Source: a virus. From it: a stretch of 45,886 nt of DNA. The notes below the pieces were generated by a model that ran no database searches, was not told where the DNA came from, and was given only the letters and a program-made list of their open reading frames with translations. The stretch lies in the IMG/VR virus record IMGVR_UViG_3300031565_000078, positions 1 through 45,886 of that record, one strand, 5' to 3'. The position numbers and the translations under genes were made by a program. This document shows, piece by piece, positions 2,681 to 41,735 of the stretch (position 1 is its first letter; the number at the start of each line of letters is the position of its first letter).

Positions 2681-2761
2681 CCAGCCGTCGCTGCAATGCG
2701 AGAGCGAGACAGAGTGAAATCGGGGCCCAGGTTGGCGTGCGTTGGTAAGTAGGAGGACGGC

Positions 2762-2914
2762 GTGCACGGGAGAGCCTACCGGCGGCACACCGAGCGCGTA
2801 GTCAAGGCGAGAGCGTGCCGCCTATGTCGCACACATCAAGAAGGGAGTAAACGCCGATGGGCTTGTTTGGTCAATGGCGCGTCCGGGAGTTGGAATATCG
2901 GGTGGCTTGTCTGA
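2762..2914 (+). CDS. Possible small basic Cys/His protein
   Basis: 50 codons from a GTG placed 5 nt after a perfect AGGAGG (2751-2756). The N-terminal half is basic with one CxxC pair (RACRLCRTH) and could bind zinc or nucleic acid. The last 58 nt overlap the next gene in another frame, where its composition turns less convincing. The ribosome site is the main support. Confidence 0.4.
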   Translation: MHGRAYRRHTERVVKARACRLCRTHQEGSKRRWACLVNGASGSWNIGWLV

Positions 2915-3039
2915 AGTACGACCTAGAGGAGCTAAGGAAGCAGCTGGAGACGAAGGGGCTGTTGGTACCCGAAAGGAAGCCGCCGGAGATCAGGCCCAAT
3001 CCGCATCTCATGGGACCAGATCACTATCGTGGGCGCTGA
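2857..3039 (+). CDS. Small coiled-coil protein
   Basis: 60 residues; ATG after AAGGGAG. Residues about 10-35 form a heptad-like helix (ELEYRVACLKYDLEELRKQL), followed by a proline-rich tail. Probably a small oligomer. Function unknown. Confidence 0.6.
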   Translation: MGLFGQWRVRELEYRVACLKYDLEELRKQLETKGLLVPERKPPEIRPNPHLMGPDHYRGR

Positions 3040-3088
3040 CAGGTCCGTGATCACCAGCACGCCCGGCCCTGTGCATTGGGTCGGGGGG

Positions 3089-3110
3089 CCTCCGCAGCTG
3101 TTGCCGGAGG
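3089..3110 (+). promoter_or_regulatory. Hairpin burying the ribosome site of the HigA-like gene
   Basis: CCTCCG (3089-3094) pairs with CGGAGG (3105-3110) across a 10-nt loop. The right arm is the Shine-Dalgarno sequence for the ATG at 3119, so folding should hinder translation of that gene. Inference from complementarity only. Confidence 0.5.
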
Positions 3111-3118
3111 TCATATAC

Positions 3119-3457
3119 ATGCCGTCAAGGTATCTGCCCGCTTGCCTCATCCCGCCAGGACGAACCATCGCCAACGAACTGGAGGCCCGCGGCTGGAGCC
3201 AGTGTCACCTCGCCGAGGCCATGGGCTGCGCGGAGGAGACCGTGAGCGGGATCGTTGACAGGCAGGAGGCGATCACCCCCGAGACGGCGGGGCAGCTGGC
3301 CAGCGCCTTCGGTACCTCGGCGGAGTTCTGGACCAACCTGGAGGCCAACTACCGCCGGGGTCTAGGTTGGCGTGCGCTGGTAGGCGTGACTGGCAATGCG
3401 CATGAAGGGCGCCAGGTGCACGAGCAAAAGGAAAAAAGCATTAGTAGTATCTACTAA
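3119..3457 (+). CDS. HigA-like HTH antitoxin/regulator without a toxin partner
   Basis: 112 residues. The start is the ATG at 3119, 8 nt after CGGAGG; a GTG at 3029 in the same frame has no ribosome site. An XRE-type HTH follows the family pattern (ELEARGWSQCHLAEAMG, then AITPETAGQLASAFGTSAEF and WTNLEANY). HigA proteins bind DNA through this domain and neutralise HigB RNases. No HigB/RelE-like gene is adjacent, so it may be a stand-alone regulator, or an antitoxin-like decoy against host HigB. The C-terminal end runs into an AT-rich palindrome that also supplies the stop codon. Confidence 0.8.
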   Translation: MPSRYLPACLIPPGRTIANELEARGWSQCHLAEAMGCAEETVSGIVDRQEAITPETAGQLASAFGTSAEFWTNLEANYRRGLGWRALVGVTGNAHEGRQVHEQKEKSISSIY

Positions 3458-3476
3458 TGTAATTTTCCTTTTGCTC
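3422..3476 (+). repeat. Large AT-rich inverted repeat (hairpin/bidirectional terminator?)
   Basis: 25-nt arms: 14 perfect outer pairs (GAGCAAAAGGAAAA / TTTTCCTTTTGCTC), a 3-nt symmetric internal loop, 8 inner pairs (CATTAGTA / TACTAATG) and a 5-nt loop. Strikingly AT-rich against its surroundings. As RNA it could terminate transcription; as DNA it resembles the end of a small mobile element. It contains the stop codon of the HigA-like gene. From here to 3627 I see no gene, only a possible extended -10 (TGG then TATACT, at 3545-3550). Confidence 0.8.
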
Positions 3477-3639
3477 ATCAGTAGGGGCCTTACTGGCAGA
3501 AGTTTCGGCACTGATTGGCTACCGGCGGGGTCTCTCGGGGCTGGTATACTGATCTATGGAGAATGGCTCTTGTTCTATAACTTTGGGCGCCGATGTGAAA
3601 AGATTGTGAACTCACAAACCGGGGGGCTTGGAGGCAGGT

Positions 3640-6312
3640 ATGGCGAGCATCGTCGAGCGGCTGGAGGGAGGCCTTTCGCGCGCAGCGGGCAGGCTGCTCC
3701 CCAGCGTGCGAGCGCAGGCCGCAGAGGCTCAGGCGTTCAGGGTGGCCTTCCGCGACAAACCGTGGGAGTTTGACGCCTACAACGGCCTCCTGAGCGAACT
3801 GGATGCCGAGACTCTGGCCTTCCTAGTGGACCAGCTCCAGTACGAGGAGGTTCTGCACCTAGGAGGCGCTGGCAAGCCGTCGTCAGAGTCCGACCGGATG
3901 CGCCAGGTGGAGCGTTCCCGCTGGCAATATCGGTGGGACCCGCTCACGCGCTGGGTGGTACGACTCTGGACGTATTTTGGCTACGGGCTGAACGTGGACA
4001 TCGTGCCAGACGACGAAGCGGCGGTGCCGGTCTGGGAGGAATACTGGACGGCCAAACGAAACCGGCCAGTGTTCGGGCAGCGGCGGTTGCGTTACAACTC
4101 GGACGTCCTGCTGAGGGACGGCGAGTTGTTTTTCGTGAACTTTGTGTCCGAGGTAACCGGAGAGGTGACGACGCGGCGGTTGCTCACGGACGAGGTGACC
4201 GAGATCGTGCGGCACCCGGACGACCGGGACACGGTGCTATTCTACAAGCGGGCGATCACCAATGGGCCCATGGCGGGCCAGGCGCTCTACTATCCCGACT
4301 GGACGGCTGAGCCTGACGAGCTGGACGCTTGGTGGGAGAAGGCTATCGGCACCGCGACCGGCGCTATTCGGATGGACGTCGCCATGCCGGAGACGGGCAG
4401 AGCCTACACGACCTGTAACGTGGTGGCCGTGCAGATCAACCTTGGCACCGAGGGGCGCGGCTGGCCGCAGATGACCAGCGGCCTGACATGGAGCAGCGCC
4501 TACGGGAAGATCCTCCAGGACCGAGCGGCGGTGGTGCGCAAGCGCGCCATGTACGATAGTAAGGTGAAGGTGAAGGGGGGCCAGCGAGCCTTGGCCTACG
4601 TACAGGGGCGCGTGCAGTCGAGCAACGTCACCCAGGGCGGCATGGAGCGCAACCCACCAGCGTCCGCCGGTTCCGACTGGCTAGAGAACGAGGCGGTGGA
4701 TAGGTCGCCGATCAACATGGGGAACTCTGGCGCGCAGGAGGCCGAGCTGGACAGCACGGCCATCTTCGGCATGGCCACACTGGCCGGCGGCCTGTTCCCT
4801 CACTACGCCGGCAAGGGCGAGGCGTTCCGGCTGGCAACTGCGTGCTACAGTGATGATACTGAGGTCCTGACCGAGAACGGATGGAAGCGCTATGAGGACT
4901 ATCGGCCTGGAGAGCGGATAGCAGCTTATGACCATGAACATCGCCGTATCGTGTACACGGTTCCACGGGCCATGCACCTGTACGAGTACGAGGGACCGAT
5001 GGTGCACCTACGAGGACGCACCGTGGATGCGCTGGTGACTCCCAATCACCGGATGCTTGTGCTGAACGAGAATAACGAGCCCCGCTGGGAAATCGTGGAG
5101 GCGGGCCAGTTGCCCAGCCGGTTTGCCTTGCCAAGCAAGGCTCTACTGGGCAATGCGGATGGGGTCTCGCATTTTCTGTTGCCTGCTGCGGGTTATAAGC
5201 CGGCACGATTCCTGCCAATGAATCGGTGGCTCCAGTTCCTTGGATGGTGGATTGCTGAGGGCTCAGCCTATGAGAGCAAGACGGGCATAGTGCAGACATC
5301 TCTCGTGCAGATGGCGAGCAATGTGGATGAATGTCAGGAGATAGAGCGTGTTCTGGCCGACTTGCCATTTAACTTTTGCTGCGATGTGAATGCCCATGGT
5401 ATGAAGCGTTGGCGCACCTCAGAGCGAGCACTCTTTGACTGGCTGGTACAATATTGCGGGCGACTCCAACCAGAACGCAGGATACCCGAGTTCGTGTTTG
5501 GCATGGATACTTGCCAGAGCAAACTATTGGTGGACGCTCTTTGGCAAGGAGACGGCTTCAGTGATGATCGGGAGCACTATCGGGGAGCACTGACCTCCAC
5601 AAGCCTGGGGTTGCTAGATGATGTGCAGCGGCTTTTGATCCTATATGGTGAATGGGGGCAGATCACCGTACAGCGAGAGGCGGGAACCCATCCCCAATGT
5701 CCGAACAGTCTTGCTTGTTATTATCTCTATCGAGCAGACAGAGATAAACTCTCTCTAGCACGCACGAAGAATGTGACGGAGGAGCAGTATAGCGGAATGG
5801 TCTGGTGCTTCGATGCCTCACCATACGGCATGTTCATAACGAGGCGAAATGGCTATCCACTTATCGCAGGCAACAGCGCAATGGAAACGCCGATTCGGCG
5901 TGGCTTCTCCGACTACCAGTTGACGTGGGCTGACGTGTTCCGGGATGTCTGCCAGATCGTGCTAGAGGCGGCGCAGAAGTACGGCGGGGCGTCCTTTGAG
6001 ACCATTGCTTGCGACGTGAACCAGGATGCTCTCGTGAACATGGACCCGCTGGCGGTGCAGCAGGCGGCCACGGCCATCGCGGCGATTGCGACGACCGGGG
6101 CCGTGCCGATGGACGAAGTGGAGCGGGCCGGGAATCGCGTGCTGGTGCTGGCCTTGCAGAGCCTTGGCGTGGGGGACGCGGACGATGTGGTGAACCCGCC
6201 TGAGGAAGAGGGCGAGGGGCTGCCGCCGGTGGTTGAGCGGAACCTGATTGGCGAGGCGGCGGACCGGATCATCGCTGGTTTGGAGTTGGAGGGCAACCAT
6301 GCGGAAGCGTGA
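3640..6312 (+). CDS. Portal protein interrupted by an intein
   Basis: Dodecameric head vertex through which DNA enters and leaves. The start is the ATG at 3640, 5 nt after GGAGG; an upstream in-frame TTG at 3628 is less likely. The precursor is 890 residues. Residues 402-745 are an intein, and the spliced portal would be 546 residues, a normal size. The exteins join as FRLATA | SAMETPIRRGF. This recreates the conserved LATA-(S/T)-(A/S)ME-P signature of a large portal family and confirms both the assignment and the splice sites. The C-terminus is acidic and overlaps the next gene by 14 nt. Confidence 0.92.
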   Translation: MASIVERLEGGLSRAAGRLLPSVRAQAAEAQAFRVAFRDKPWEFDAYNGLLSELDAETLAFLVDQLQYEEVLHLGGAGKPSSESDRMRQVERSRWQYRWDPLTRWVVRLWTYFGYGLNVDIVPDDEAAVPVWEEYWTAKRNRPVFGQRRLRYNSDVLLRDGELFFVNFVSEVTGEVTTRRLLTDEVTEIVRHPDDRDTVLFYKRAITNGPMAGQALYYPDWTAEPDELDAWWEKAIGTATGAIRMDVAMPETGRAYTTCNVVAVQINLGTEGRGWPQMTSGLTWSSAYGKILQDRAAVVRKRAMYDSKVKVKGGQRALAYVQGRVQSSNVTQGGMERNPPASAGSDWLENEAVDRSPINMGNSGAQEAELDSTAIFGMATLAGGLFPHYAGKGEAFRLATACYSDDTEVLTENGWKRYEDYRPGERIAAYDHEHRRIVYTVPRAMHLYEYEGPMVHLRGRTVDALVTPNHRMLVLNENNEPRWEIVEAGQLPSRFALPSKALLGNADGVSHFLLPAAGYKPARFLPMNRWLQFLGWWIAEGSAYESKTGIVQTSLVQMASNVDECQEIERVLADLPFNFCCDVNAHGMKRWRTSERALFDWLVQYCGRLQPERRIPEFVFGMDTCQSKLLVDALWQGDGFSDDREHYRGALTSTSLGLLDDVQRLLILYGEWGQITVQREAGTHPQCPNSLACYYLYRADRDKLSLARTKNVTEEQYSGMVWCFDASPYGMFITRRNGYPLIAGNSAMETPIRRGFSDYQLTWADVFRDVCQIVLEAAQKYGGASFETIACDVNQDALVNMDPLAVQQAATAIAAIATTGAVPMDEVERAGNRVLVLALQSLGVGDADDVVNPPEEEGEGLPPVVERNLIGEAADRIIAGLELEGNHAEA
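4843..5874 (+). mobile_element. Intein with LAGLIDADG-type homing endonuclease (in portal gene)
   Basis: 344-residue protein intron. Block A begins at Cys1 (CYSDDTEVLTENGWK), block B is ALVTPNHRM with the Thr and His of the family, and blocks F/G are VWCFDASPYGMFITRRNG through AGN, followed by Ser+1. Between them lie two LAGLIDADG-like helices, LQFLGWWIAEGS and LLVDALWQGDGFSDD, each with the expected acidic residue near its end, so the endonuclease may still be active. The penultimate residue is Gly, not His, a known variation among phage inteins. Codon use is more AT-rich than in the exteins, consistent with lateral arrival. Confidence 0.92.
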
Positions 6313-33728: not shown

Positions 33729-33758
33729 GGGCGCGCTCGTAGGGGTGCGCCTTTTTTT
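33729..33758 (+). terminator. Rho-independent terminator ending the late operon
   Basis: GGCGC/GCGCC stem (33730-33734 with 33747-33751) with an extra G-U pair, then seven T residues. It closes the structural/lysis transcription unit. The whole 33711-34129 stretch has no convincing gene: it holds this terminator, an AT-rich repeat, a consensus promoter, a leader and the first ribozyme. Confidence 0.85.
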
Positions 33759-33811: not shown

Positions 33812-33829
33812 TATGACATTGGAAAGCCC

Positions 33830-33858
33830 TTGACAACCTGATTTACTTGTGCTATAAT
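33830..33858 (+). promoter_or_regulatory. Perfect consensus sigma70 promoter (early operon)
   Basis: TTGACA (33830-33835), 17 nt, TATAAT (33853-33858). It drives the ribozyme-punctuated small-gene operon. Its spacer and flanks closely match the promoter at 36599-36627. Confidence 0.93.
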
Positions 33859-33865
33859 GATTGCA

Positions 33866-34042
33866 GGATAAGGAAACGGAACCTTAACAAACGAGCGCCG
33901 AGCGAGAGCGGGAGCCCAAAGGGCCGCCACACTAGACTCCGGGGCCGAGAGGCACCACCTCCAAAGTCACTACAGGGACCAGGGGGGCGGGAGAAAGGGC
34001 CGAATAGCCCAGAGGGGCCGCGAACGCAAGGCAATCCAAAGA
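33866..34042 (+). other. Long untranslated leader of the early operon
   Basis: About 180 nt between the expected transcription start and ribozyme 1. Purine- and GC-rich, with several AGGGCC and GGGGCCG repeats. An 82-codon frame crosses it but starts inside the -10 element and runs through the ribozyme, so I do not call it. Cleavage by ribozyme 1 would release this leader as a separate RNA of about 210 nt. Confidence 0.5.
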
Positions 34043-34108
34043 GCCGAAACCCCAGGCGGGAAGCCGGTTGGGGTCTGGCTAGGACGGCAACCTAGCTACT
34101 GATGAGGC
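34043..34108 (+). ncRNA. Type II hammerhead ribozyme, copy 1 (canonical core)
   Basis: All core elements are in type II order. Stem II is open: GCC (34043-34045) pairs with GGC (34106-34108). GAAA follows (34046-34049). Stem III is CCCC with GGGG (34050-34053 / 34070-34073), closed by A34049-U34074. The cleavage triplet is GUC, cut predicted after C34075. Stem I is 8 bp (34076-34083 / 34091-34098, one G-U) with loop ACGGCAA. The core CUGAUGA is at 34099-34105. Loop GGC (34086-34088) can pair with GCC at 34111-34113 as a pseudoknot. It sits in the operon leader, 22 nt before the first start codon. Confidence 0.88.
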
Positions 34109-34129
34109 AAGCCAAGAGGGAGAGACGAA

Positions 34130-34423
34130 GTGGGCGCCAAGAAGCAGATCAGCGAGGCTGTTCGTGCCATTCGTGGTTTGGCACGGAAGTACGGCATGGC
34201 TGCCTTGAACGAGGCCACGATTTACAGACTGTGGGAAGAGCTTGCGGGATATCAGCCCGAGTCGGAGTTCGCACGGTTCTACTTCCAATGTACTGGCCGA
34301 GAGTCTAGGCAAGTGGCCCGCGAGGTTATGTGCACCTATCGGCGCGATGATTGGACCGTTACTGTTACGGCGCGGCTCATGGATGGTTCCGAGTATTGCT
34401 TCAAGGCCAATGAGAACGCATAG
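34130..34423 (+). CDS. Small early protein, 97 aa
   Basis: GTG at 34130 after AGAGGGAGAG. Helical N-terminus (ISEAVRAIRGLARKYGM) and a beta-rich C-terminus (WTVTVTARLMDGSEYCF). No family recognised. Its stop codon shares its last base with the first base of ribozyme 2. Confidence 0.65.
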   Translation: MGAKKQISEAVRAIRGLARKYGMAALNEATIYRLWEELAGYQPESEFARFYFQCTGRESRQVAREVMCTYRRDDWTVTVTARLMDGSEYCFKANENA

Positions 34424-34486
34424 CCGAATCCCCGGAAGCCCTTTTCCGGGGACTGGCTAGGACGGCAACCTAGCCACTGACGAGGC
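34423..34486 (+). ncRNA. Type II hammerhead ribozyme, copy 2 (U-A variant)
   Basis: GCC (34423-34425)/GGC (34484-34486) stem II. GAA (34426-34428). Stem III CCCCGG/CCGGGG (34430-34435 / 34446-34451), closed by U34429-A34452 in place of the usual A-U. Cleavage position C34453 in the triplet GAC. Stem I is 8 perfect pairs (34454-34461 / 34469-34476) with loop ACGGCAA, and the core is CUGACGA (34477-34483). Compared with copy 1 the stem I G-U pair is now G-C, a compensating change. The A15.1-U16.1 swap may slow cleavage (NHH-type site). Confidence 0.8.
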
Positions 34487-34506
34487 AAGCCAAGAGGGAG
34501 GCAGCA

Positions 34507-34812
34507 ATGAAGGCACCGAGGATCGACGAGACGAAGCTCCGGTACGCGCACCAGGAAGTGCGCGAGATGGCGGAGAGCCTCTACGGGAGCAGTCGCAATT
34601 GGAAGCGGGCCCTGACCACAGCGGAGCGAATCATCTGCGAGCCTGGCCATGTCTACGTCGGCACGGGGGAGCAGCTGGAGCGCATAGATGGAATGATCGC
34701 CACCTACATCGCCGAAGGCGATCAGTGGAACCTTCTGGACCCAATGATTGCCTACGGCTACAGCGCCGTCAGCAAGCGCGGATGGGAAGCCTGGGGCATC
34801 GCGCAGGGATAA
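34507..34812 (+). CDS. Small early protein, 101 aa
   Basis: ATG after AGAGGGAGG. Helical (LRYAHQEVREMAESLYG, TTAERIICEPG) with a C-terminal SKRGWEAWGIA. No family recognised. Flanked by ribozymes 2 and 3. Confidence 0.65.
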   Translation: MKAPRIDETKLRYAHQEVREMAESLYGSSRNWKRALTTAERIICEPGHVYVGTGEQLERIDGMIATYIAEGDQWNLLDPMIAYGYSAVSKRGWEAWGIAQG

Positions 34813-34814
34813 GA

Positions 34815-34878
34815 GCCGAATCCCCGGAGAGAAACCTCCGGGGACCGAGCGGGGTTGACCACCCGCCGCTGATGAGGC
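34815..34878 (+). ncRNA. Type II hammerhead ribozyme, copy 3 (U-A variant, second stem I type)
   Basis: GCC (34815-34817)/GGC (34876-34878). GAA. Stem III 8 bp CCCCGGAG/CTCCGGGG (34822-34829 / 34836-34843), closed by U34821-A34844. Cleavage position C34845. Stem I 7 bp with a bulged A34848 (34846-34853 / 34862-34868), loop 34854-34861. The core CUGAUGA is complete (34869-34875). Loop UGACC (34856-34860) can pair with GGUUA (34880-34884) as a pseudoknot. It starts 2 nt after the upstream stop codon. Confidence 0.8.
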
Positions 34879-34900
34879 AGGTTACGAAAAGGAGAATCCA

Positions 34901-35137
34901 ATGAGTCATAATCACCTCCCTGAGATCAAGTTCGATACTAGCCTCTACACTAACCGATATGGCAAGCGGCCGCACGGTTACGGCCTCTGGGCATTCTCCT
35001 GGAAGAACACCAGTGGCGGCTATAATGTCACCGAGTGGACTGGTTGGTATTCTGACGCGAAGGCCAAGGCCCGCGAGGTCGCTCGCATGAGCAAGCAGGC
35101 CTTCCCCTGGATTCGCACAGTCAACGTTCTGCCCTAG
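34901..35137 (+). CDS. Small early protein, 78 aa
   Basis: ATG after AAAGGAGA. Aromatic-rich (GYGLWAFSWKNTSGGYNVTE, WTGWYSD), basic C-terminal helix. No family recognised. The 45-nt gap that follows has no ribozyme. Confidence 0.65.
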   Translation: MSHNHLPEIKFDTSLYTNRYGKRPHGYGLWAFSWKNTSGGYNVTEWTGWYSDAKAKAREVARMSKQAFPWIRTVNVLP

Positions 35138-35182
35138 AGATCACGCCCAGCCAGTCGGGCAATAGACCGGCAGGAGGCTACG

Positions 35183-35473
35183 ATGGCTACATACACGATC
35201 ACGACAAGATACACTGTCACGGCGAGCAGAGCGTATAACCTAAACCCGCATTTGCGAGATGCCCTTGCCGCGATTGCCAACAATCGCATAAGTATGACTT
35301 TCTCTCGTGAGGGGCAGGGGCGAGGCCGTGAGCTTCTCTGGGAAGTCCAGAATGTCCGATATGAGGATACGGCGCTGGTTGAGGCGCGGGTGCCAACTCT
35401 CACGGCACTGGAGGCCGGGTTTCTGGCCGGGTTTTTCGAGGCCCGCGGGGTTCCAGTAAGGATCACGAAATGA
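35183..35473 (+). CDS. Small early protein, 96 aa
   Basis: ATG after CAGGAGGC. Beta-alpha appearance (YTITTRYTVTASRAYNLN, LTALEAGFLAGFFEARGVPV). No family recognised. Ribozyme copy 4 starts at the base after its stop codon. Confidence 0.65.
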   Translation: MATYTITTRYTVTASRAYNLNPHLRDALAAIANNRISMTFSREGQGRGRELLWEVQNVRYEDTALVEARVPTLTALEAGFLAGFFEARGVPVRITK

Positions 35474-35534
35474 GCCGAAACCGCCAGGGAACTGGCGGTC
35501 CGAGCGGGGTTGACTACCCGCCGCCGAATGAGGC
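35474..35534 (+). ncRNA. Hammerhead ribozyme, copy 4 (degenerate core)
   Basis: GCC (35474-35476)/GGC (35532-35534). GAAA (35477-35480). Stem III CCGCCAG/CTGGCGG (35481-35487 / 35492-35498), closed by A35480-U35499, GUC cleavage triplet ending C35500. Stem I like copy 3 with bulged A35503 (35501-35508 / 35517-35523). The CUGAUGA core reads CCGAAUGA (35524-35531): U4 is C and one base is inserted. All stems are kept but catalysis is doubtful. Loop GACU (35512-35515) can pair with GGUC (35536-35539). Confidence 0.65.
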
Positions 35535-35585
35535 AGGTCGAATACGCAAATGCGGGCAGAGTCGAGACACAGACGGAGGATCACA

Positions 35586-36056
35586 ATGGACACCAATGAG
35601 CGACCAGTTGCCGACCCCGAATACGCCGGGTACTGGCTCGGAGCCGGATACCGGTGGGATACCGAGGAGCGCGCGGCAATCGCTATTCGAGACGTATACG
35701 CTGTTGACGTTGCAATGGCGCCGGTCCGGGCGCTCCCTGAGACATTGAGCCGCGATGAGTACGAGACTGCGGCAACAGAACTGGGAATCGCCCAGCTGGC
35801 CGACACGGAGATCGTTCTGAGCCGACACAGTGTCCGCAACTGCCCCCGGCCCCCCGAGTCCCGACTGACCCGTTTTGTCCAAATGGCACTCGCGGAGCGC
35901 CGCCTCGACGGGATTGAGGCCGAGCGCGCTGCACAGCCGAAGCGGACAATCCACTACATCCACTGCGACTGCGGCCACGACGTCCCCGAGGGAGAGCGGA
36001 TGAGCGCCTCACTCGGGAGCTCCTGTTTCGACTGCTACGACCGAATGAGCAACTAG
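35586..36056 (+). CDS. Early protein with C-terminal Cys/His cluster, 156 aa
   Basis: ATG at 35586 after GGAGGA; an in-frame start at 35550 has no ribosome site. Two parts: an N-terminal 100 residues without motif and a C-terminal likely zinc site (HYIHCDCGHDVPEG, SCFDCYDRM). Function unknown. Confidence 0.65.
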   Translation: MDTNERPVADPEYAGYWLGAGYRWDTEERAAIAIRDVYAVDVAMAPVRALPETLSRDEYETAATELGIAQLADTEIVLSRHSVRNCPRPPESRLTRFVQMALAERRLDGIEAERAAQPKRTIHYIHCDCGHDVPEGERMSASLGSSCFDCYDRMSN

Positions 36057-36068
36057 CCCTCCGAGTCT

Positions 36069-36096
36069 CAGGAGCCGAGCGCCAGTTCGGCTCCTG
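36069..36096 (+). other. Intergenic hairpin
   Basis: 10-bp stem CAGGAGCCGA / TCGGCTCCTG with an 8-nt loop, no T-run. Its left part resembles the 5' end of the hammerhead copies (GAGCCGA) and it sits in the same stop-to-ribosome-site position, but no catalytic core follows. Confidence 0.6.
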
Positions 36097-36131
36097 GCCT
36101 GGGCGGACTAGAAGAATCAAGGAGGAAGATC

Positions 36132-36542
36132 ATGGGCACCTATCGTTTCGATCTGCAGCACACTGGCCGGCCGTTCGGTCCGTGCGAGGTCATCCCGGAT
36201 TGGGCCTGGAAGGGGCTCTCACGGTACACGACCCTGAGTGCCGCGAGAAAGGCAGAGGATCGTGTACGGGGAGACATGCACGAGGCAGCCGGACCGGCCG
36301 CCTGGACCGACCACTTCCGAGTCATTCCGCTGCGGGATACTAGGTTGACCCAGACATACGTGTGTCTGGGAACGATTCGGCATGATCCGTCGCCAGACTG
36401 CGCGGTATCCATTGATGTGACGATAACCTGGCCTGCTGGGAAATCGGAGCCCTTTCCAGCGACGCCTGGCGGCTGGGCCAGTCCCTACCAGTGCGCGGCG
36501 TGTGCGGCGATAGACGAGGTGGCGCGACACGAGATGGCCTAG
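36132..36542 (+). CDS. Early hypothetical protein, 136 aa
   Basis: ATG after AAGGAGGA. Contains a CxxC-type pair near the C-terminus (YQCAACAAIDEVA). Mixed alpha/beta. Last gene of this promoter unit, followed by a hairpin and a new promoter. Confidence 0.65.
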   Translation: MGTYRFDLQHTGRPFGPCEVIPDWAWKGLSRYTTLSAARKAEDRVRGDMHEAAGPAAWTDHFRVIPLRDTRLTQTYVCLGTIRHDPSPDCAVSIDVTITWPAGKSEPFPATPGGWASPYQCAACAAIDEVARHEMA

Positions 36543-36554
36543 TCCCCTCACCAC

Positions 36555-36580
36555 AGGCCGCCGAGACGGCTCGGCGGCCT
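36555..36580 (+). terminator. Probable terminator-like hairpin
   Basis: Perfect 11-bp stem AGGCCGCCGAG / CTCGGCGGCCT with a 4-nt loop. No clean T-run follows, so termination may be partial or the hairpin may act in RNA stability. It separates two promoter units. Confidence 0.55.
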
Positions 36581-36598
36581 CCATGAGCGGATTGTCTA

Positions 36599-36627
36599 TT
36601 GACAACATGATACCTTTGCGCTATAAT
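36599..36627 (+). promoter_or_regulatory. Perfect consensus sigma70 promoter (second early unit)
   Basis: TTGACA (36599-36604), 17 nt, TATAAT (36622-36627). The spacer and downstream bases match the 33830 promoter beyond the consensus hexamers (both have TTGACAAC, GCTATAATGA and a GGAT shortly after). Confidence 0.93.
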
Positions 36628-40883: not shown

Positions 40884-41239
40884 GCGTTGAAGAGCAGATG
40901 ACTCGGCGAATAAAGTTAGAGGCAATTCAGGAGCACGCAGCCGAAGTCGCTGAGCGCTGGCCGTTCTGTTGCGTCCTGACATTGACGGTAGTCAACTACT
41001 ACCATGAAGACGTTCCCTGGCTGCTTGGGGAGGTGGAGCGGCTGACGGCGGAGTGCGTGACCGCTCGCACGGTCTACGTGGTCCTGGACCGTGATTGGGG
41101 CGAGACCCCTGCCATGATTTCGATCCATACTACCCTGGCAGGCGGCGTGGCGGCGGCAGCCAAGTACAACCGAAAGACGGGCGACCACTTCGACATCGAA
41201 GAGCGCACAGTCGACGGCGAGGAGGCCGGCGATGAGTGA
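40880..41239 (+). CDS. Early protein, 119 aa, paralogue of 41732 gene
   Basis: GTG at 40880 after AGGAGGAGG. Its first 60 residues match the N-terminus of the 41732 gene (AEVAERWPFCC ... YYHEDVPWLLGEVERL). The C-terminal half differs. The end sequence GAGGCCGGCGATGAGTGA, which carries the start of the next gene, also recurs after the 41732 gene. Function unknown. Confidence 0.65.
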   Translation: MSVEEQMTRRIKLEAIQEHAAEVAERWPFCCVLTLTVVNYYHEDVPWLLGEVERLTAECVTARTVYVVLDRDWGETPAMISIHTTLAGGVAAAAKYNRKTGDHFDIEERTVDGEEAGDE

Positions 41240-41735
41240 CTATCCCATCGACTTTTCTGGTCCGATGGTGCGGGCCATCCTCGCCGGCACCAAGACACAG
41301 ACGCGGCGGGTGGTAAAGCCACAGCCACGCCAGATCAACGATGATTTTGACGGCACGTGGGAATGGAAGCTACCAGGAAGATACCACGATGATCTGGTCA
41401 TGGGAACGATTCTGCGCGACGCCTGCCCCTACGGCCAGCCTGGCGACAAGTTGTTGGTCAGACAGGCACCGGGGGCCAGCCGCCTGACGCTGGGGGTCAC
41501 TGGCCTCTGCGTAGAGCGCGTGCAGGAGATCACCCCCGAGGACGCCAAGGCGGAGGGCGTAGTGCCGATGCGCCTCTACAGCGACGTGATGCGTGCCGGT
41601 CACCAGTTCGACGAGCACTTGTGCGCATTCCACGACCTGTGGGACCGGCTCTACGCCAAGAAGGGCTGCGGCTGGTATGAGAACCCATTTGTCTGGGCCA
41701 TCACGTTTCGAGTGGTAAAGGGGGAGGGGAGATGA
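41232..41735 (+). CDS. ASCH-domain-like phage protein
   Basis: 167 residues. IDFSGPMVRAILAGTKTQTR RVVKPQP at the start, GDKLLVRQA, a core with CVERVQEITPEDAKAEGV, and FHDLWDRLYAKKGCGWYENP at the end. This is the widespread phage ASCH/PUA-like family, thought to bind RNA. Overlaps both neighbours by 4-8 nt. Confidence 0.82.
   Translation: MSDYPIDFSGPMVRAILAGTKTQTRRVVKPQPRQINDDFDGTWEWKLPGRYHDDLVMGTILRDACPYGQPGDKLLVRQAPGASRLTLGVTGLCVERVQEITPEDAKAEGVVPMRLYSDVMRAGHQFDEHLCAFHDLWDRLYAKKGCGWYENPFVWAITFRVVKGEGR

Follow-up and report, generated by a model that had tools for sequence, protein, structure and literature searches.

Does a phage operon carry a row of self-cleaving RNAs that separates its genes at the level of the transcript, and are all members of such a row equally able to cut? 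The question is raised by the 45,886-nt virus record analyzed here over its whole length (hereafter the window), in which four type II hammerhead units lie on the plus strand within about 1.5 kb (34043-35534). All four units of the original prediction were found, and the four cleavage sites that it named agree with our assignment of H17. The units follow the order GCC (stem II), GAA, stem III, the cleavage base C, stem I, a CUGANGA core and GGC (stem II), the CUGANGA core being altered in copy 4. The region comprises the following features, with no match to Pfam or PHROGs (E 0.01) for any of the six ORFs at 34130-36542:

33729-33752: terminator-like hairpin.
33830-33858, plus strand: P1, promoter-like site with 12 of 12 sigma-70 consensus bases (TTGACA-17-TATAAT, TG before the second hexamer).
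34043-34108, plus strand: copy 1, canonical type II hammerhead in the leader, A15.1-U16.1, predicted cleavage after C34075.
34130-34423, plus strand: ORF g1, 97 aa, GTG start, no family match.
34423-34486, plus strand: copy 2, type II hammerhead, U15.1-A16.1, predicted cleavage after C34453.
34507-34812, plus strand: ORF g2, 101 aa, no family match.
34815-34878, plus strand: copy 3, type II hammerhead, U15.1-A16.1, predicted cleavage after C34845.
34901-35137, plus strand: ORF g3, 78 aa, no family match.
35183-35473, plus strand: ORF g4, 96 aa, no family match.
35474-35534, plus strand: copy 4, hammerhead-like, core CCGAAUGA, predicted site C35500.
35586-36056, plus strand: ORF g5, 156 aa, no family match, start picked from its ribosome site (35550 in the ORF list).
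36132-36542, plus strand: ORF g6, 136 aa, no family match.
36599-36627, plus strand: P2, promoter-like site with 12 of 12 sigma-70 consensus bases, ahead of the next ORFs.

The pattern GCCGAA-N20-50-CTGANGAGGC occurs three times in the window, against 0.01 times in dinucleotide shuffles. The same three places were returned, with scores of 18-20, by a structure grammar requiring GAA, a paired stem II, a stem III of at least 4 unbroken pairs, H17, a stem I of at least 5 pairs and CTGANGA; on 300 shuffles of the window this grammar gave a mean of 0.02 matches, none scoring 18 or more. A chance origin is thus excluded. A scan for further copies with one core edit allowed (stems II, III and I of at least 3, 5 and 6 pairs) found none in the window; the core of copy 4 had entered its list of one-edit cores only after this copy was seen. 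The covariance model RF02276, proposed as a check, gave a divided answer: it matched copy 1 (34042-34117, 33.4 bits, E 1e-6 for the window record) and copy 3 (34814-34886, 31.4 bits, E 3.6e-6), both under its gathering score of 37 bits, and missed copies 2 and 4, and a hammerhead search of the window at the Rfam gathering threshold returned nothing. The score alone does not exclude membership, since 16 of the 43 matches obtained outside a twin contig of the window (see below) are also under the cut-off.

With RNA families searched at an E-value of up to 0.1, the window held only these two hammerhead matches and a DUF3800-III candidate structured RNA (RF02962; 2632-2743, plus strand, 64 bits, above its gathering score) located downstream of the terminase gene. 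Matches to mir-760 and Vax2os1_2 were taken as chance. Elsewhere in the window, a stretch of the portal ORF (3628-6312, plus strand) matches Hint_2 and LAGLIDADG_3, in both cases with a score under the Pfam cut-off, as well as a PHROG labelled thymidylate synthase, and this ORF carries a probable intein with a homing domain.

The single fold expected of all four copies was recovered in copies 1-3, in which the core is complete (GAA and CUGANGA) and all three stems are present. Within this fold, the core reads CUGAUGA in copies 1 and 3 and CUGACGA, an allowed change at N7, in copy 2, and the 15.1-16.1 pair of copies 2 and 3 is U-A in place of the A-U that copies 1 and 4 have. In copy 4, CUGAUGA is replaced by CCGAAUGA (U4C and an A inserted after A6), and because the conserved GAA/CUGANGA core is not intact we call this copy hammerhead-like only. 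RNA folding gave the three-way junction as the minimum-energy structure of copies 1, 2 and 3 (z -2.8, -4.3 and -3.2), with stems I and III closed and stem II open; in copy 4 the junction is not the minimum-energy fold, and stems III and I appear only in the centroid. Loop I could pair with the 3' tail over 3, 3 and 5 pairs in copies 1, 2 and 3 respectively, and by eye the loop UUGACU of copy 4 can pair with its tail AGGUCGA if G-U is allowed. Pseudoknot runs of at least 5 pairs were found in 36 of 83 units against about 23 with shuffled tails, only mildly above expectation in a naive test.

The copies thus cannot be taken as equally good, with U-A in copies 2 and 3 and two core changes in copy 4. 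A natural U-A variant at 15.1-16.1 self-cleaves less efficiently, an insertion after A6 leaves low activity, and U4C lowers activity in vitro, yet leaves enough in vivo for viroid infection (PMC3088659). On the basis of these activities we expect fast, slow, slow and little cleavage for copies 1 to 4, the published values being for single changes and copy 4 being a double change. Its activity is probably weak, from its two core changes; given the in vivo sufficiency of U4C alone, it may be less dead than assumed.

The serial array had been put forward as a new arrangement for mRNA processing, a claim anticipated by Perreault et al. (2011; PMC3088659), who describe serial hammerheads flanking single genes in prophages, propose that single-gene mRNAs result, and report three serial arrays that cleave in vitro, one of them also in E. 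coli. We therefore rejected the serial arrangement as a novelty. The four units of the window form a clustered array in the same sense, since a phage here carries several units, all on the same strand, next to single genes or short blocks of genes. They share with RF02276 type II hammerheads (PMC3088659) the permuted order, an open stem II of 3 pairs and a possible pseudoknot between loop I and the 3' tail, and differ in their sub-threshold scores, in U15.1-A16.1 of copies 2 and 3, and in U4C and the insertion after A6 of copy 4. Serial hammerheads around genes are likewise found in the clusters of Agrobacterium tumefaciens (flanking ardA), Azorhizobium caulinodans and Clostridium scindens (PMC3088659); those clusters have been shown to cleave, whereas cleavage in the window is predicted from sequence and its genes belong to no known family.

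A pattern scan of viral contigs yielded at least 120 loci. Among the matches listed, 37 loci (42 in all, minus the window and four loci from the U-A scan described below) have at least one unit passing the grammar, and 13 of the 37 have two or more, two of these 13 (L033 and L099) being 98% identical over 5.8 kb. We then ran RF02276 at an E-value of up to 0.01 on 14 records picked for multiple units or kinship, and 27 of the 45 resulting matches passed the cut-off (11 matches in G007; 7 each in G008 and G011; 4 each in G009, G010, G012 and G014; 2 each in G013 and the twin G001; none in G002-G006). The 11 matches of G007 (L059), a 67.6-kb contig, make up the largest hammerhead array seen here. 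At 10788-13090 of L203, five serial pattern matches have by eye an interrupted stem III, possibly a type II subclass, and the grammar, demanding four unbroken stem III pairs, misses at least this contig. Of 74 proteins whose genes follow ribozymes in other arrays, we scanned 20 against Pfam and 10 against PHROGs; most of these 30 had no match or fell in families of unknown function, the other families being ArdC, HNH endonuclease-like, ParB_N and a weak match to DNA_pol3_beta.

One of these arrays, L173 (IMGVR_UViG_3300032278_000343), resembles the window in having serial type II U15.1-A16.1 units between small genes. It differs in that all seven of the units found are U-A, against mixed types in the window, and in having an ArdC-like anti-restriction gene (2725-3630, minus strand), located directly behind a U15.1-A16.1 unit, which recalls ardA of the Agrobacterium array. 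No relative of g1 or g2 of the window was found in L173.

As predicted, the window's array follows a consensus promoter (P1), and its units are placed so that cleavage would separate cistrons, in the leader and at the g1/g2, g2/g3 and g4/g5 borders. Promoter-like sites in the region number 5 against 1.6 in shuffles, and terminator-like sites 5 against 2.9. Because the g3/g4 and g5/g6 borders have no unit, the claimed gene-by-gene order does not strictly hold. Between g5 and g6 there is a plain GC-rich hairpin (36057-36131, plus strand), by eye not a hammerhead and covered by the mir-760 match. The placement of the units at upstream stop codons was borne out, copies 2, 3 and 4 starting at -1, +2 and 0 nt from the stop (the first base of copy 2 doubles as the last base of the g1 stop codon) and copy 1 lying in the leader.

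This placement is common among phage units. We assembled 85 distinct type II units, including three from the window. Loci that repeat the window (L001, L002, L123, L161) and units identical to others were left out, as were two units (L004, L088) that have neither an A-U nor a U-A pair. Counting as qualifying stops the ends of ORFs of at least 45 codons, 61 of the 85 start -4 to +10 nt from a stop codon, against 96 of 1,700 random places in the same loci; of the others, 6 have no qualifying upstream stop, 7 lie at 11-40 nt, 7 at more than 40 nt, and 4 start more than 4 nt ahead of the stop codon's end. A second set, obtained with another pattern from new loci that may include close relatives of the first set and anchored on the third base before GAA, gave 89 of 110 units flush with a stop codon against 114 of 2,200 random places (4 without a stop, 8 at 11-40 nt, 9 at more than 40 nt), after dropping 5 of 115 units with less than 300 nt upstream. 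In 86 units of this set a recognisable site lies no more than 60 nt away, and for these the median distance from the unit to the downstream start codon is 30 nt. With a flush stop on one side and a near start codon on the other, a unit tends to fill the intergenic gap, and genome compaction alone, with no function of the stop codon, could explain the flush placement. The words "stop codon" are absent from the main text of PMC3088659, and among the papers listed by a literature search none was, by title, on phage hammerheads; earlier publication is possible.

When viral sequences were scanned completely for U15.1-A16.1 with C15.2-G16.2, 55 stretches matched, 5 of which hold structured U-A units (the twin, L173, L146, L132 and L154), against at least 120 viral rows for the matched A-U pattern. 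Outside the window 10 U-A units were found, seven in L173 and one each in L132, L146 and L154; none occurs among the matches listed in the scan of at least 120 loci, and none of 16 rows returned by a tight pattern in cellular genomes passes the grammar. The U-A form is uncommon but recurrent. In an alignment of the L173 and L146 units (9 units, 8 distinct), 97.7% of cells are paired, and both partners change in 3 of the 22 pairs. These units are close to one another in sequence; shuffles reached the covariation score in 0 of 500 cases and the count of both-side-changing pairs in 4 of 500, and further pair types were no more numerous than in shuffles (261/500). Two of the three covarying pairs, one of them 15.1-16.1, vary solely in the A-U unit of L146. 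The related contig L210 has four A-U units, which, set against the U-A units of L173, means that the swap spread over an array. One could go further and see in U15.1-A16.1 an evolved slow class giving partial, graded cleavage across phage arrays, possibly ribosome-timed at the stop codon, with its own degree of separation for each gene of an operon, a tentative idea that we hold to be rather doubtful. The core of copy 4 was rejected as a natural class: of 7 pattern stretches, one is the twin, and in the remaining six the best pairing found for stem III has no more than 2 unbroken pairs. In L294, a "TAA" unit looks like a mis-assigned pairing.

We consider it likely that the window contains a phage operon in which type II hammerheads in series, graded in speed from copy to copy, cut a long transcript that starts at P1. 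This reading is based on sequence, predicted fold, placement and recurrence, from which we infer transcription, cleavage, relative rates, end protection and benefit. Copy 1 would quickly remove a leader of about 210 nt, copies 2 and 3 would cut slowly, so that g1, g2 and g3-g4 would be only partly separated, and copy 4 would cut little or not at all. Cutting would be co-transcriptional, and each piece would gain an end hairpin because each intergenic unit begins at a stop codon: the upstream mRNA would end in a compact 3' hairpin (stem III) with a 2',3'-cyclic phosphate, and the downstream mRNA would start with a 5'-OH, its 5' end forming a hairpin (stem I) ahead of the ribosome site. The likely benefit would be protected mRNA ends and independent decay, and small accessory genes could then be gained, lost or expressed in different amounts.

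A 53-nt segment that starts just 5' of the cleavage site and extends into the downstream leader is 94% identical between copies 1 and 2; in the same part, 42 nt are 90% identical between copies 3 and 4; and copies 2 and 3 have 15 nt in common from stem II into stem III. These traces of duplication, together with the U-A swap in copies 2 and 3 and the two core changes in copy 4, would fit a decaying array in which only copy 1 is functional and copies 2-4 are failing remnants. We regard such decay as possible, if somewhat improbable, since copies 2 and 3 keep a long, unbroken stem III (10 and 9 pairs) and a paired 15.1-16.1, the U-A form recurs with its structure in four other contigs, and three pairs vary on both sides in the L173/L146 family. 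A second assembly, L123, carries the same four units and is 99.994% identical over 16,550 nt; we took it as the same phage (the twin above), so it offers no test of conservation. It is 99.99% identical to the window up to 40679 and then diverges, with only short or 92% similar pieces beyond. More distant relatives of the array were not found through g1 (the twin and one 29-residue match) or g2 (the twin only), and neither a search of phages with g5 nor a blastn of 33820-36600 in phages gave a match. The records of L125-L128, related through a gene at 41232-41735, and of L124 have no RF02276 match.

Since the shared parts differ across the cleavage site, the parts on its two sides have been mixed among copies, which would also be expected if the units were short homology boundaries for the exchange of single-gene cassettes, with cleavage secondary. 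In the related contigs L210 and L173, two adjacent array genes seem to stand in opposite order, judging from one protein at 76% identity and a second, weak match (39%); that second match depends on an overlong L173 ORF running across a ribozyme, and L173 has no ribozyme between the two genes concerned. For such exchange any repeated spacer would suffice and the exact ribozyme core would not be kept, and we find this account quite unlikely. That the units are mainly stable hairpins shielding mRNA 3' ends or spacing genes, with cleavage not the selected function, would accord with a stem III that is long, GC-rich and directly adjoins the stop codon, with stems III and I retained in copy 4 despite its damaged core, and with the plain hairpin seen by eye at the g5/g6 border, but is very unlikely given a catalytic core that is whole in copies 1-3 and needless for a plain hairpin.

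On the preferred reading of a transcript cut by copies of graded speed, the possible additions to the 2011 work are one more array, the graded quality of its copies, the stop-codon placement and an array composed entirely of U-A units. A 2017 review (PMC6155905) still described what prokaryotic hammerheads do as an open question. The window brings a canonical unit, two of the slow type and a damaged one together in a single operon with a consensus promoter ahead of it, and so offers a compact test case. That position and speed matter is hinted at, in a testable way, by the stop-codon placement and by L173, whose array is all U-A.
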